NCBI GenBank assembly: GCA_026770025.1
Contig: JAMXDE010000014.1
Coordinates: 1,736,001 to 1,800,000 of the forward strand
Source: Craspedostauros australis
Lineage: Eukaryota; Bacillariophyta; Bacillariophyceae; Mastogloiales; Achnanthaceae
Length of the DNA: 64,000 nucleotides
Direction: 5' to 3'
In this document: piece after piece, positions 23,001 to 57,847 of the stretch
Layout: every line of letters starts with the position of its first letter
Position numbering within the stretch: the first letter of the stretch is position 1
Position numbers and translations under genes: made by a program
The notes under the pieces: generated by a model
The model's database searches: none
What the model saw: only the letters and a program-made list of their open reading frames with translations
Told to the model about the DNA's origin: nothing

Positions 23001-26000
23001 ACGACGACAAGGCTTGCACAGCCATCGTCAAGAATCCATCCAAGGAGATCAGCGCGGTGAACCTGCACCGAATGCTCGGCCACGCGCCACTCGAGACCAT
23101 GAAGCGAACGGCCGCTCAATATGGATGGAAGATTATCGGCGAGATGCCGGTATGTCGTGACTGCGCGGTCGCGAACGCAAGAGTGAAGAATATTCCGAAG
23201 GCAACTATTCCAAGAGCTACTCGCCGCGGCGAACGGTTCTTCATTGACATTAGTTACACTAAACACATAAGCTTCGGAGATAAACGCTACTGGACCCTGA
23301 TCGTGGACGACTGCACGGATCACTGCTGGAGTTTCTTTCTCAAGAACAAGAGTGATCAACCAGGATACATCAAACGATTCATCCAGACGATCAAGTCACA
23401 GACTGGTGACCAACAGATCATCTTCCGAGGTGACAACAGCGGAGAGAACAAATCCACGGAGGATATTCTCATCGATGCAGGACTCAACGTGAAATTCGAA
23501 TACACGGCATCGAACACGCCGCAACAGAACGGAAGAGTGGAACGCAAGTTCGCGTACCTCTACACCAAGATTCGCTCCATGCTCAACGGAGCACAGCTCG
23601 ACGAAGAGTATAGGCATGGCCTGTGGGCAGCAGCTGCTAGCACTGCCACTGCTATCGCCAATATCACCGTAGCGAAGAACCAGAAGGAGTCACCACATCG
23701 ACAATTCTTTGGCAACGATCCACCATATGCGAACGCGCTCCGCACATTTGGAGAGGTGGGTGTTGTGAAGACTACCTACGGCGGGATTACCGCGAAACTC
23801 AAGAACAGAGGAGAAGAGATGGTGTTCATCGGATATGCACACCAACATGCATCAGGGGTCTACAACATGTACAGACCATCGACCAAGTCACTCATCTGTT
23901 CACGCGACATCAAGTGGCTCAACCAATCATACGGACAGTTCCGTGGTTGGGCACCAGCACCGAACATATCCAACGAAACAGGAACAACGGACGCAGACGG
24001 CTTCACAACCATCGGACGAAAGGGAGCAACGCCAAGGACGGCAACGCGTCAAACATCGGAAGCGAAGAGAGTATCTTTCGCTGACAGCAACAGGTACTAC
24101 ATTCTATCAGACAGTGATGACGAGGATAATGAGGACGACGGAGTAGTGACTCAACTAATCCAGAATGACGAGGAAGATCGGAGCGAATCCAATCATGAGG
24201 ATGACGAAATCCTACCCTCCGGCGACGAAGCCGATGACGAGACAGGTGTCACTCCTCCGAACACACCAGCAAGGTCTACACATGACACACCATCTAAATC
24301 TCCACCAAGCAAACCAAACAAGCGTGACATAGCTAGAAAGGAGAGGATCCGACGTCACGAAGCACGAGGCAGGAAGAGAGAAGCTAATCCCAAGCCAACC
24401 ACAGGGAAGAGTATTCCCAGAGCTCTGCGCGAGCTCGAAGACTTCAACGAACGAGGTCGAAAGGAAGAAGGCTATGAGAGCGATCCATCATCCAGTGAGG
24501 CGAGTGACGAACTCAGCGACGAGATGATCGACGATTCCAACAACGAAACTACAGATGATGAAGAAATCGAAGACGAAAATGAAGAGATCGAGATCACTCA
24601 TCATAGCACAACAGGACTATACGGAATGAATGCAATCATTACCGAATCACCAGCGATCGACATCGGATTGTCGATGCAGGACGAGAACAAGGAACCAGAG
24701 AAGCACATCGAACCTACAACGTTCGACGGAGCCTTCAATCACCCAGATCCTATCCATCGGAAGGGATATCGAGCAGCCATCAAGAAGGAGTTCGACTCCA
24801 TGGATACACGCAAGGTGTATAGCAAGATCAAACGAGACGCCATCCCACGCGGCCGCAGATGCTGCAAGTGCAAATGGGTCTTCAAGCTGAAGCGTGACGG
24901 CACACATCGAGCACGGCTCGTTGCATGTGGCTATTCACAAGTTGCAGGAGTAGACTTCCAAGAGCATTACTCACCCGTCATCCATGACGTGACCTATCGG
25001 GTCATGATGGTGATCATGCTAATCAAGAAGATGGACTGCGCACTCGTCGATGTCGTAACGGCATTCCTACATGGAGACCTCGACGAGGAGATCTACATGA
25101 ACTGTCCCAATGGGATGGATCATCAACCAGACGAAGCCCTGACCCTACACAAGCCAATCTACGGACTTGTGCAGAGCGCCAGGCAATGGTTCAAGATGTT
25201 GGTATCGACCCTCAAGAATATCAACTTCGAACAGAGCGCAGCAGACCCGTGCCTGTTCTACAGGAAGACGAACGAAGGAAGCATGATCGTGGCCATCTAC
25301 GTGGACGATTGCTTCTGTTGCGGAGACTCCAAGGCACTGGAGACATTCCTGAAGGACATCCAAGGCAGCAAATTCAAGGTGACAATCGAGCGCGGACTCG
25401 GAGACTACCTCAGCTGCAACATCGAATTGAACCATGACAAGACTAGAGCGACATTGCGTCAACCACATCTCATCCGACACCTCATCGAAGAGTTCGGAGC
25501 CAAGGTTGAGAAGATGCAACGTTATGGGACACCGGGAACCCCGGGTCAAATCATCGTACGACCATCCGAAGATAACGGACTGCAGAAGGTCGGACCGGAA
25601 GAACATGCCGAATACCGCCGAGGCGTCGGTATGCTACTCTTCCTCATCAAGCACTCGCGACCAGATATCGCGAACCCTGTGAGGGAACTCTCCAAGGTAT
25701 TGATCGGGCCCACCAAGGCTGCAATGAAGGAGATGTATCGGATCATCAAGTATGTGATCGATACAAAGGACTATGGATTGAAGATCCATCCAGCGCGTCC
25801 AGATGACGACGGCTGGGACATGGAGCTCTTCTGCGATAGCGAATATGCAGGAGACAAGAATACAAGAATCAGCGTAGGGGGATTCATCCTATACCTGTGC
25901 AAGGTACCAATCCTTTGGCGATCCAAGGCACAGAAGGCCGTCACACTCAGTTCATCCGAAGCAGAATACGTTGCCCTTTCCGAAGCGGCAAAGGAGATCT

Positions 26001-53800: not shown

Positions 53801-54997
53801 CGCCGAAGGCAAGTTGCTTTGCGCCAGAGGTTGATCCCGAATGATGACGACGAACAGAACTTGGCAGTCTGATCTCCGACGCCCGGCCTGGCTTCTGCCT
53901 GGCTTAAGTCGTCGCCACTCGACTTGTTGTCACAGATAGGCCCTCCCCTCGGAATGTGATTTGAACTGAGATGCGCAGCAGCCGTCTTTGTGGTATAATA
54001 TTATAGAATATGATGCAGTACGGCTCCTTCAAAATCAACACCCATGAATACCGCGAGCTGAGGAAGATGGAAGGTGGAGAAATCGGCTGCTGGGGAATGA
54101 CTTGTGTGGTGCACTCATCAAGGAAGGGAAGAGGTGTATCGCCTGGAAGAGGTATCACCTGGAAGAGGTACCACCCCGAGGTGCTTGCACTTTCCCTTGT
54201 GTTGGTCGGTTGTGGTTGATTTGGCTTGGCTTGGCTGATCTCTGGCCTTCTCTCTCCTAAACTGGAAGCAAGTCGTCTCCTTGTCTACTGCCTCTCTACT
54301 GCCTTGATCTTTGCTTTGTTTTCGTTGATTGCCAGCAGCTGCGTCCATCCCACCCATCAATCCAGACAGCTTCTGCGAATCGGCTATCCACTCACACAGA
54401 CCAAGGAGAGAGCAACCTCGCCAAGGATACAACTACCCACAACGGAACACCCAAACAGAGGGAGAAGAGGCGAACAAGGAAGCAAGAAGCAAGAAACAAG
54501 GGGAAGCCTGTTGCATCTCACGAACCAGTCTTGTTTGCGGTTGTTGGGTTCTTCTTGTGCCCACAAAAGAAGATCGCCAGTCACAACATGTGCCCTCGTG
54601 GATACGTTTTCGTGTTGGTTGGATGACCTCAGCGCCATCCATGACTGGTACTTTTTGTCCGAGGAGAATCCGGTCGATGTAATCGATGGAAATCGTGATT
54701 CAGTCCATTCCTGGCCATTCGTGACATCATTCATCAACTTCCACGTTGAGAGATTTTCACGACAACACAAACGCGGAGACACACGCAACGATGATAGCGT
54801 GGGCCACAGCCGCACCCAAGGCAACCCACCAAAACCCCAACACAAACACAACAAGGAGCTCTTCTGTTCCTTCATACACCAACGAACAAGTGCCTCCGGA
54901 CCAACTGCAACCAAAGCATCAATCACAATCCACATACAAGCACAGAACCAAGCACAGAACCAAGCACAGAACCAAGCACAGAACCAAGCACAGCACC
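53801..54997. other. Divergent intergenic region and leader of the ubiquitin gene
   Basis: 1.2 kb between divergent start codons. Open frames here lack family features. The last 60 bases (54938-54997) are five units of the 12-mer AAGCACAGAACC, the last with one mismatch, ending at the base before the ATG. Confidence 0.6.
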
Positions 54998-56014
54998 ATG
55001 AAGTTCACGACCACAGCATTCCTGATCGCCGTCAGCGTGGCGTCCGCAGATGCCGCCGTCGGCTTTCCGTCCTTCTCAGGAGTTGGCCACCGATCCGTGC
55101 CCAACAAGATGGGCCTTGCCTCTGTCATGGGCATCCCACGCGGCGGCATGCAGCTCTTCGTCAAGACGCTCACCGGAAAGACCGTGTCCGTCGAGGTGGA
55201 AGAGGGAGAATCCATAGAGGAGGTCAAGGCCAAGATCTCGGAGAAGGAAGGCATTCCAGCCGAACAGCAGCGCCTCATCTTCGGCGGACAGCAGCTGCAG
55301 GATGGAAAGACGCTGGACGATTACGATGTCGGGGATGATTCCACATTGCACCTCGTGCTGCGATTGCGCGGTGGAATGCAGCTCTTCGTCAAGACGCTCA
55401 CCGGAAAGACGGTGTCGGTGGAAGTGGAGGAAGGCGAGTCGATTGAAGAAGTCAAGGCCAAGATCTCGGAGAAGGAGGGCATTCCCGCGGAGCAGCAGCG
55501 CCTCATCTTTGGGGGGCAGCAGCTGCAGGATGGAAAGACGCTGGATGACTATGACGTCGGCGACGATTCGACATTGCACCTTGTTCTGAGATTACGCGGC
55601 GGGAACACCAAACCAGCCTTCCTCAACAAGATCGTGGGAGACGGGCACTTCCCTGTCGACGAGGACTTTGTCAAGGACAACCTGCAGGGACTGACGGAGG
55701 CCGATCGCGAACTCATGAACACCTTCGTTGCGCAGAGTCTCGAGGGTGCCGACGAGATTGATGCCAGCGGCAAGGCGCGCGCCAAGCGTGCGTTCTTCCG
55801 CATCGGTACCTCCAAGCCGCGTCTCTGCGACGACAGTCCCGTCACATCCACGATCAGTCCAGCCGTGCGGCAGGCCAACGAATTCGATTACTCCGGCAAG
55901 CTGGTGCCCACCGACGGCAAGGGCAAGGCCACCAAGCTCAACAAGATCTTCAAGCGACGGGATAACGAAGAGAAGGTTCTGGACAGTGTGCAGAAGATGA
56001 ATTTGGATAACTAG
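54998..56014 (+). CDS. Signal-peptide tandem ubiquitin, K48Q and K63D, with a novel C-terminal tail
   Basis: Single exon, 338 residues. Residues 1-50 are a leader: a signal peptide ([16 protein letters not shown]), then AVGFPSFSG and the end MGIPRGG. Residues 51-126 and 127-202 are two ubiquitin units with identical amino acids. Each keeps Leu8, Ile44, His68, Val70 and the C-terminal LRLRGG, and Lys at 6, 11, 27, 29 and 33; Lys48 is Gln and Lys63 is Asp. Residues 203-338 are an unrecognised charged tail ([12 protein letters not shown] at its start, [14 protein letters not shown] at its end), not ribosomal L40 or S27a. In diatoms a symbiont-derived ERAD-like system (SELMA) in the periplastidal compartment uses its own ubiquitin. 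The residue after the predicted cleavage site (ADA-A) is not aromatic, which fits that compartment rather than the stroma. Location is inferred. Confidence 0.88.
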
Positions 56015-56292: not shown

Positions 56293-57759
56293 TCATCCAG
56301 ATCCTTTCTGCAACAGCAGCACGGCCAAGACGGAGATACCCATCACACCCGACATCCACACTTGATCGTTGCGCTTCTGATCCCGCAGCAGCTTCATTCG
56401 CATCGGATTGCTCTCCGTGGGCGGCGTCGCCTTTCTCTTTTCCAGATCCTCACCCATGCGCCATCGGTACAGCAAGGATTTGGTCGGAGGATCGCGGATC
56501 TCGTCGCGACTCGCTTTGGCAAGATTCAGGATTTCTTGCAAGTCATGCTGATGCAGCGACAGCTCCTGCATCAACGCAATGGCGTCCTTGTATTTGGCTT
56601 CGTCACTTGATTGGGATCTGCGTTTGTACCGATCACCGATGGGTAGCTGCTGGAATGGGTTGAGCTTGTTCTGCGTCGCGTTCCATTCTTGATCCTTGGA
56701 GGCCGTATTGAAGTACTTCTCGTGGATGGTTTGAAAGTACTTGACCAGACGAGGATAGGAGGACAGGAGGATCACCAAATGCACATCGCACAAAGCTTGC
56801 GCGAGATGATCCCACAGGATGGCATCCACAAGCGTGGGCTGGGATCCGCCAAGCATGAACTGCGTGCGGCCGGGATCAGATGCAAGCTGCGATTCCAACG
56901 CCGCGTACGCCACCTTGGCCTTGTCCAAGGCAACCGGCACGGTCCAACCACGCGTTGCGGACTTGATGCTGTGCCGGGCGGTCGATCGCTCGCACCAGGC
57001 TTGGAACATGCCTCCCAACTTGGATGGTCGGAACCAAGATGCGGCGATGGATGGCCGCGTCGCGGAAGCCGGACACGAGGCATCGTAGCATTGCGGTCGG
57101 TACACCTGGTCCCATGCATCCGCATCTTCGTATCGCAGATACACGAGGATGCGTTGCAGGTCGTTTTGAACGAGGTTGGTGATGAGCGTGCTCTTGGCGA
57201 CCTTGTTTGGATCGTCCTTGATCGAAGCATCCAGATCGATCTTGCGGTGCTGCTTGAGGTATTCCAAGATGGAGTTTTGATTGCTGAAGGACGATGCCGG
57301 CTGGGGGTGGCTGCGTCCCACTGCAACCGGGGGCGTCTCACTTGGGCTGCTGTTGGCGTTGCTCGTTGCATTGATATCGGCTTTGCTGCCGCCATCCGTG
57401 CGCAGATCCTGAAGGTAGGGCAACGGACCCGTGGCCTCCGTGCAAAGGTACGGCGAATTGATGACCACGAACGGCACCTTGGCCATGCGCAGCACGAGCT
57501 GCTCCAACCACGCTGGTCGGTACTGCACCAACCGAAGCGCTTCCTGCGGATGCTGCGTGGCCAACATGTCCGAGACGGCCGTCACATCCAACGTCCAGCA
57601 CGCCGCGTCGTTGCTTTCCACAGCCGGCTTGCCACCCCAGGCTTCCGTCCATCCTTCTCCTTGTCGCGTGTCGCGCGGTGCATCGCGGAATCGTTCGCAT
57701 CCCATGTTCAGCAGCGATGACGCCAGCGCCGACTGTGCCAGCAACGCCGTGTCTGTCAT
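56293..57759 (-). CDS. Metaxin-like mitochondrial outer-membrane protein
   Basis: Single exon, 488 residues from the ATG at 57759. Metaxins are the glutathione-transferase-fold subunits of the SAM complex that inserts beta-barrels into the mitochondrial outer membrane. The N-terminal half carries the thioredoxin-like part: LVQYRPAWLEQLVLRMAKVP and FVVINSPYLCTEATGPLPYL. A long polar spacer near 130-170 (NATSNANSSPSE) follows. The C-terminal GST-like domain ends with FMLGGSQPTLVDAILWDHLA near 297-320, the metaxin motif with its conserved Asp. A hydrophobic segment (VMGISVLAVLLLQ) near 470-485 is a likely C-terminal membrane anchor. It is longer than animal metaxins (about 315) mainly from inserted polar loops. 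Confidence 0.8.
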   Translation of the reverse strand: MTDTALLAQSALASSLLNMGCERFRDAPRDTRQGEGWTEAWGGKPAVESNDAACWTLDVTAVSDMLATQHPQEALRLVQYRPAWLEQLVLRMAKVPFVVINSPYLCTEATGPLPYLQDLRTDGGSKADINATSNANSSPSETPPVAVGRSHPQPASSFSNQNSILEYLKQHRKIDLDASIKDDPNKVAKSTLITNLVQNDLQRILVYLRYEDADAWDQVYRPQCYDASCPASATRPSIAASWFRPSKLGGMFQAWCERSTARHSIKSATRGWTVPVALDKAKVAYAALESQLASDPGRTQFMLGGSQPTLVDAILWDHLAQALCDVHLVILLSSYPRLVKYFQTIHEKYFNTASKDQEWNATQNKLNPFQQLPIGDRYKRRSQSSDEAKYKDAIALMQELSLHQHDLQEILNLAKASRDEIRDPPTKSLLYRWRMGEDLEKRKATPPTESNPMRMKLLRDQKRNDQVWMSGVMGISVLAVLLLQKGSG

Positions 57760-57775
57760 GATGTGTGTTAGTCTG

Positions 57776-57847
57776 TATGCTTGCTTGCTTCCTTGCTTCC
57801 TTGCTTCCTTGCTTCCTTGCTTCCTTGCTTCCTTGCTTCCTTGCTTG
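57776..57847. repeat. Tandem 8-mer repeat (CTTGCTTC-type) in the metaxin leader
   Basis: About eight to nine units of TTGCTTCC, transcribed as GGAAGCAA, starting 17 bases upstream of the metaxin start codon. Confidence 0.93.

Follow-up and report, generated by a model that had tools for sequence, protein, structure and literature searches.

The gene at positions 54998 to 56014 of the forward strand encodes, with a probability of about 0.82, the precursor of a ubiquitin of the diatom periplastid compartment, belonging to the import machinery known as SELMA and delivered, cleaved and used as a handle in the way proposed below. Positions refer to the window, the whole stretch of 64,000 nucleotides of Craspedostauros australis DNA that was analysed. 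This reading is carried by a targeted ubiquitin without Lys48 and Lys63, by partner genes with signal-peptide-like starts, and by cytosolic ubiquitins that keep both lysines, and together these support the fit to SELMA advanced in an earlier reading of the same DNA (hereafter, the original prediction).

Anatomy of the precursor

The coding sequence runs from an ATG at 54998 to the stop codon TAG at 56012-56014 and gives a protein of 338 amino acids without the need for an intron. Its first part, 54998-55054 (residues 1 to 19 or 20), is a signal peptide predicted by a simple hydrophobicity rule, rather than by SignalP or another trained predictor. The predicted cut, placed by eye after A19 or A20, leaves Ala or Val at position +1, in agreement with the signal peptide and non-aromatic +1 residue first described, and unlike the antenna proteins of the same genome, which have ASAFAP-type presequences (AAAFAP among them). 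The signal peptide is followed by a transit-peptide-like stretch of about 30 residues (55055-55147, up to residue 50) that ends in GIPRGG, with the RGG encoded by 55139-55147. Two ubiquitin units, both recognized by Pfam PF00240, occupy 55148-55375 (residues 51-126) and 55376-55603 (residues 127-202). Both end in LRLRGG, followed by Met in unit 1 and by Asn in unit 2; the last unit of the genome's polyubiquitin also ends in GGN. The remainder, 55604-56011, encodes a C-terminal tail of 136 residues with a coding-like GC3 of 0.79.

The tail belongs to no known family. It had no match in Pfam at E<=1 nor in the PDB at E<=10, and in a search of its own genome it matched only itself, with no second copy. 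With the whole 338-residue protein as query, no relative was found in the viral and prokaryote collections. An AlphaFold2 model of the units and the tail, built from the single sequence, reached a mean pLDDT of 46, and the block means of the tail (23-38) correspond to no confident fold. Units joined head to tail are also found in cytosolic polyubiquitins, and a C-terminal extension in ubiquitin-ribosomal protein fusions, both of which are cut at GG; the tail here, unlike that of the fusions, matches no family, and the lack of a Pfam or PDB match rules out a fusion with an L40 or S27a tail. The original description of the gene was thus right but incomplete, as it had neither the tail, nor the RGG before unit 1, nor the general divergence of the units.

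An upstream ATG at 54791 is in frame with the precursor, and the frame is open back to it; if this start were used, the signal peptide would be buried. Directly 5' of the start codon, at 54938-54990, lies a short tandem repeat (AAGCACAGAACC-like, by eye). The neighbouring gene, 56293-57795 on the reverse strand, is convergent and resembles Tom37/metaxin (Pfam Tom37, 3.1e-8). Elsewhere in the window, a frame of 158 residues at 25820 on the forward strand is, judging by its look, presumably a copia-type RNase H.

Residues and constraint in the ubiquitin units

Both 76-residue units have Gln at position 48 (55289-55291 and 55517-55519) and Asp at position 63 (55334-55336 and 55562-55564), as originally read and now verified on the translation of both. 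A residue check likewise found the patch formed by L8, I44, H68 and V70 and the LRLRGG end intact, as had been claimed, together with the F4 patch, the I36 patch and Arg72; the ubiquitin fold with its C-terminal GG is present. The lysines K6, K11, K27, K29 and K33 are kept and K54 is new, so that other chains are possible and only two linkages are excluded. In the TEK box, K6, K11 and E34 are intact and T14 is replaced by Ser. The targeted unit differs from the cytosolic ubiquitin of the same genome at 26 residues (66% identity), many of them near residues 46-64, and from human ubiquitin at 23; its net charge is -6, versus 0 in the cytosolic protein.

The protein sequences of the two units are identical; 32 of the 76 codons are changed between them, through 32 nucleotide changes that are all synonymous, which makes exact the earlier count of about 30 silent differences with no residue changed. 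With S = 53.3 sites, dS between the units is about 1.2, and the chance that all 32 changes would be synonymous is roughly 6e-21. The original prediction took this as selection on sites 48 and 63 themselves. That conclusion does not follow, since purifying selection spans the whole domain and the two sites are among 26 differences in all.

In the genome searched (74.8 Mb, 90 contigs), Lys48 and Lys63 are kept in all eight canonical ubiquitin units found and are both absent from the two targeted ones. Five of the eight lie in a polyubiquitin on contig C3; the other three are single units on C2, C3 and C26, and the match on C26 is partial. Two ubiquitin fusions elsewhere in the genome (L013 and L010), which we take to be the usual fusions named L40 and S27a, keep both lysines. 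The predicted targeting sequence and the non-canonical residues rule out that the gene encodes a cytosolic polyubiquitin. As a weak control, ubiquitin-like genes on nine viral contigs keep Lys63 in nine of nine cases and Lys48 in four of nine; the five without Lys48 have Gln (three) or Ile (two) and none of them ends in RLRGG, while one of the four with Lys48 stops early.

Other divergent relatives were observed in the same genome. A single long frame (L110, G000:C49:288000-292300) holds 12 matched divergent ubiquitin-like tandem repeats without LRGG ends, a separate divergent ubiquitin-like protein (L012, G000:C3:1884393-1884617) ends in NRGG, and a ubiquitin-like frame (L011, G000:C9:1335741-1335965) ends in LQLRGGGM, with Lys at 48 and Ala at 63.

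Comparison with known plastid ubiquitins

The loss of these lysines and its reading as an uncoupling from degradation are not new, and later papers credit them to Stork et al. 2012, whose title already names the uncoupling of translocation from degradation. In the available part of Fellows et al. 2017 (PMC5487736), the loss of Lys48 in diatom periplastid ubiquitins is credited to Stork et al. 2012 and Maier et al. 2015, and in that of the review by Cavalier-Smith 2017 (PMC5756292) the loss of Lys63 in all chromist periplastid ubiquitins is credited to Stork et al. 2012. The gene described here lacks both lysines, like the diatom SELMA ubiquitins as cited in these two papers, a comparison made by description and not by sequence. 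The same part of PMC5487736 describes plastid targeting of the Phaeodactylum tricornutum homologue. This SELMA ubiquitin would be 54323, the plastid one of two identifiers judging by list order, and like the present protein it is a targeted, divergent ubiquitin.

The apicoplast modifier PUBL of Toxoplasma gondii, in the passages of PMC5487736 that deal with it, shares with the present gene an N-terminal targeting extension, an RGG directly before the ubiquitin domain and a C-terminal GG, which is essential in PUBL. In contrast, PUBL has one unit, with Lys48 and 56% identity to Toxoplasma ubiquitin, whereas here there are two units with Gln48, Asp63, a tail and 66% identity. In those passages Lys48 is kept by PUBL without being needed, four of its lysines can be lost together (a fifth was not amenable to testing), ordinary ubiquitin replaces PUBL with slight attenuation, the RGG before it is neither cleaved nor needed, and its size on gels suggests no processing. 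The kept Lys48 and the RGG that is neither cut nor needed count against the main reading. Since PUBL keeps a Lys48 that it does not need and ordinary ubiquitin can substitute for it, the loss of lysines looks permitted or refining, rather than what makes import work. The loss had originally been regarded as a strong functional hint; the loss itself stands, but its importance is weakened. A targeted orthologue with Lys at both 48 and 63 had been named as evidence that would speak against the proposal, and PUBL, outside the diatoms, goes half way towards it by keeping Lys48.

Partner genes in the host genome

Paralogues of Der1, E2, Cdc48, E1 and Ufd1 with signal-peptide-like starts, all judged by eye, are encoded in the host genome. 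Among all six Der1 matches these are L020 and L022, among all 24 E2 matches L032 and L046 (the latter presumably UBE2J-like), and among all three Cdc48 matches L049 and L050, for which first exons were read. The other copies showed no signal-peptide-like start in the frames read; matches of E2, Der1 and Cdc48 were read mostly in the frame holding the match, so that targeted copies with their start in another exon may be missed. For E1, one N-terminus was read among 11 ThiF matches, that of the second E1-sized frame, L087, which has such a start and is identified as an E1 by a PDB match at 2.6e-9; L051 is a cytosolic-type E1. For Ufd1, the one read of two matches was the divergent L088, which also has such a start. 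The cell encodes a ubiquitin-driven import set that would apparently be sent by way of the ER, as SELMA would predict.

The genome also encodes divergent subunits of the 20S proteasome in which a signal-like segment was recognized by eye. Of 29 proteasome matches, 12 were read and ten counted, leaving out L095, which looks mitochondrial, and L100, which is unclear; in L090, L094, L096 and L098 the segment is not at the very start. The available part of a review (PMC5756292) reports that the 19S cap has been lost in diatom periplastid proteasomes.

In this genome, the silicon transporter family gave 88 matches, on contigs C2, C3, C9, C11, C24, C30, C61 and others, some of them clustered. Nearly the whole profile is spanned by 32 of the 88, and 28 of these 32 have no internal stop. 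These matches, and antenna proteins whose presequences are of the ASAFAP type, characterize the genome as most probably that of a diatom. Silicon transporter families in a diatom typically have under ten members, and the family here is large by comparison.

RGG at the ends of presequences

The RGG before unit 1 recurs in the partner genes. An xRGG at the presequence end is found in eight of nine SELMA-type precursors, namely ubiquitin, two Der1, two E2, two Cdc48 and E1, but not Ufd1, whereas shuffling of residues 21-100 in each precursor predicts 0.31 (P about 2e-11). Five of the nine (ubiquitin, both Der1 and both E2) prompted the idea, so the cleaner test is given by the four examined afterwards, of which three, both Cdc48 and E1, have the RGG and Ufd1 does not. 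The preceding residue is Val, Leu or Pro in seven of the eight and Gln in one, and the following residue is Met, Ala, Ser or Gly.

In the antenna proteins, which served as control, an RGG upstream of the domain and in frame was found at none of 30 loci, with a presequence visible in only about 20 of them; the 30 come from 61 matches and many are near-identical. The same holds for the five window frames with stroma-type presequences (by eye), none of which has an RGG. Among 89 long frames from the window and the loci, an RGG lies at residues 21-110 in five, corresponding to three SELMA genes, polyubiquitin and one other. Of the 24 window frames flagged as signal-peptide-like, two besides the ubiquitin gene have an RGG within the first 150 residues, both on the reverse strand, from 37590 (at residue 95) and from 20460 (at residue 108). 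The contrast between eight of nine SELMA-type precursors and none of the antenna loci suggests a shared, ubiquitin-tail-like maturation site. As a mark of every periplastid protein the motif is rejected, given its absence from Ufd1 and its presence in just one of the ten proteasome subunits counted above, near the chance expectation of 0.19.

Triose-phosphate translocators gave 15 matches, five of which were read. The stretch before the domain was readable in three of these (not in L085 and L086); L083 and L084 have an RGG shortly before the transporter domain and L082 does not, and a signal peptide was not seen in any of the three.

The recurring xRGG at SELMA presequence ends may be new. In the open-licence literature searched, no statement was found of RGG as a processing site or as a motif common to SELMA precursors. 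An LRGGG motif has been described in the N-terminal region of the Omp85-like import proteins of P. tricornutum and Cyanidioschyzon merolae, in the available part of a 2007 study on cyanelle import (PMC2222254). Its occurrence in P. tricornutum hints that the motif is also found in the import machinery of another diatom. However, since LRGGG occurs there together with a Phe-type signal, and also in a red alga, which has no such compartment around its plastid, an RGG need not mean periplastid processing.

Proposed mechanism and alternatives

From these data we infer a mechanism that covers where the protein resides, how it is cut and conjugated, and what the lost lysines mean. The signal peptide would bring the precursor to the ER, and the transit-like stretch would then guide it by way of the Der1 channel to the periplastid compartment. 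A protease would then cut after the RGG of the presequence, of unit 1 and of unit 2, yielding two ubiquitins and a freed tail. E1 and E2 enzymes resident in the compartment would attach the ubiquitin to incoming precursors, Cdc48 would pull on the tagged precursors, and a deubiquitinase would afterwards take the tag off. Lacking Lys48 and Lys63, the ubiquitin cannot build the classical chains used for degradation and signalling, for which reason the tag is proposed to be a handle, and not a mark for destruction, in a compartment possibly equipped with a 20S proteasome of its own.

The protein could be a periplastid ubiquitin whose loss of Lys48 and Lys63 was passive, the residues having drifted where there is neither a 26S cap nor DNA-damage or endosome signalling, so that Gln and Asp would not be adaptive. 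This is a possibility to be taken seriously, if at less than even odds. Both losses fall within a broader divergence from cytosolic ubiquitin, with many of the differences near residues 46-64, PUBL does without a Lys48 that it has and can be replaced by ordinary ubiquitin, and the reported loss of the 19S cap fits as well; against this, the identity of both units over a dS of about 1.2 implies strong present constraint on every residue, Gln48 and Asp63 included. It is rather unlikely that chains are still formed, through K11, K6, K27, K29, K33, K54 or Met1, and aid the pull of Cdc48 or feed the 20S proteasome of the compartment. None of the five other canonical lysines has been lost, nor has Met1, the TEK box is intact except for Ser at 14, and proteasome subunits with signal-like segments are encoded, but the joint dispensability of four PUBL lysines points the other way.

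Two further explanations concern the GG sites. That the units stay fused as a linear di-ubiquitin with tail, a scaffold binding Cdc48 cofactors rather than a modifier, would agree with the encoded fusion, with a tail that blocks conjugation unless it is cut, and with the apparently unprocessed size of PUBL; it is nevertheless highly improbable, as each unit closes with an unaltered LRLRGG before a Met or an Asn, in the manner of the genome's polyubiquitin, the GG of PUBL is essential, and E1 and E2 with signal-peptide-like starts are encoded. The RGG before unit 1 could instead be a functionless remnant of an earlier unit in a polyubiquitin ancestor, as might be thought from its dispensable counterpart in PUBL, yet an xRGG occupies the same place in Der1, Cdc48, E1 and E2, which were never polyubiquitin, and makes such an origin quite improbable.

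A periplastid SELMA ubiquitin remains the preferred reading, and the gene fits the published pattern, to which it adds the tandem units, the long tail and the net charge. The recurrence of RGG could matter more than the ubiquitin itself and deserves a cross-species comparison. The transit-like peptides of the periplastid compartment are, in the words of the available part of a review (PMC5756292), 'somehow' removed. In this diatom, the transit-like peptides of import-machinery proteins of the compartment might end in a replica of the ubiquitin tail, in most cases [Val, Leu or Pro]RGG with Met or a small residue after it, and one tail-cutting protease of the compartment, a deubiquitinase or a relative, might both mature the polyubiquitin and remove the presequences. 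This idea is for now doubtful: most deubiquitinases need a folded ubiquitin body, and it is weakened by presequences without such a body and by PUBL remaining uncut at its RGG. If it were true, the shared ubiquitin-like cleavage motif would point to a definite site for presequence removal and to a class of candidate enzymes.
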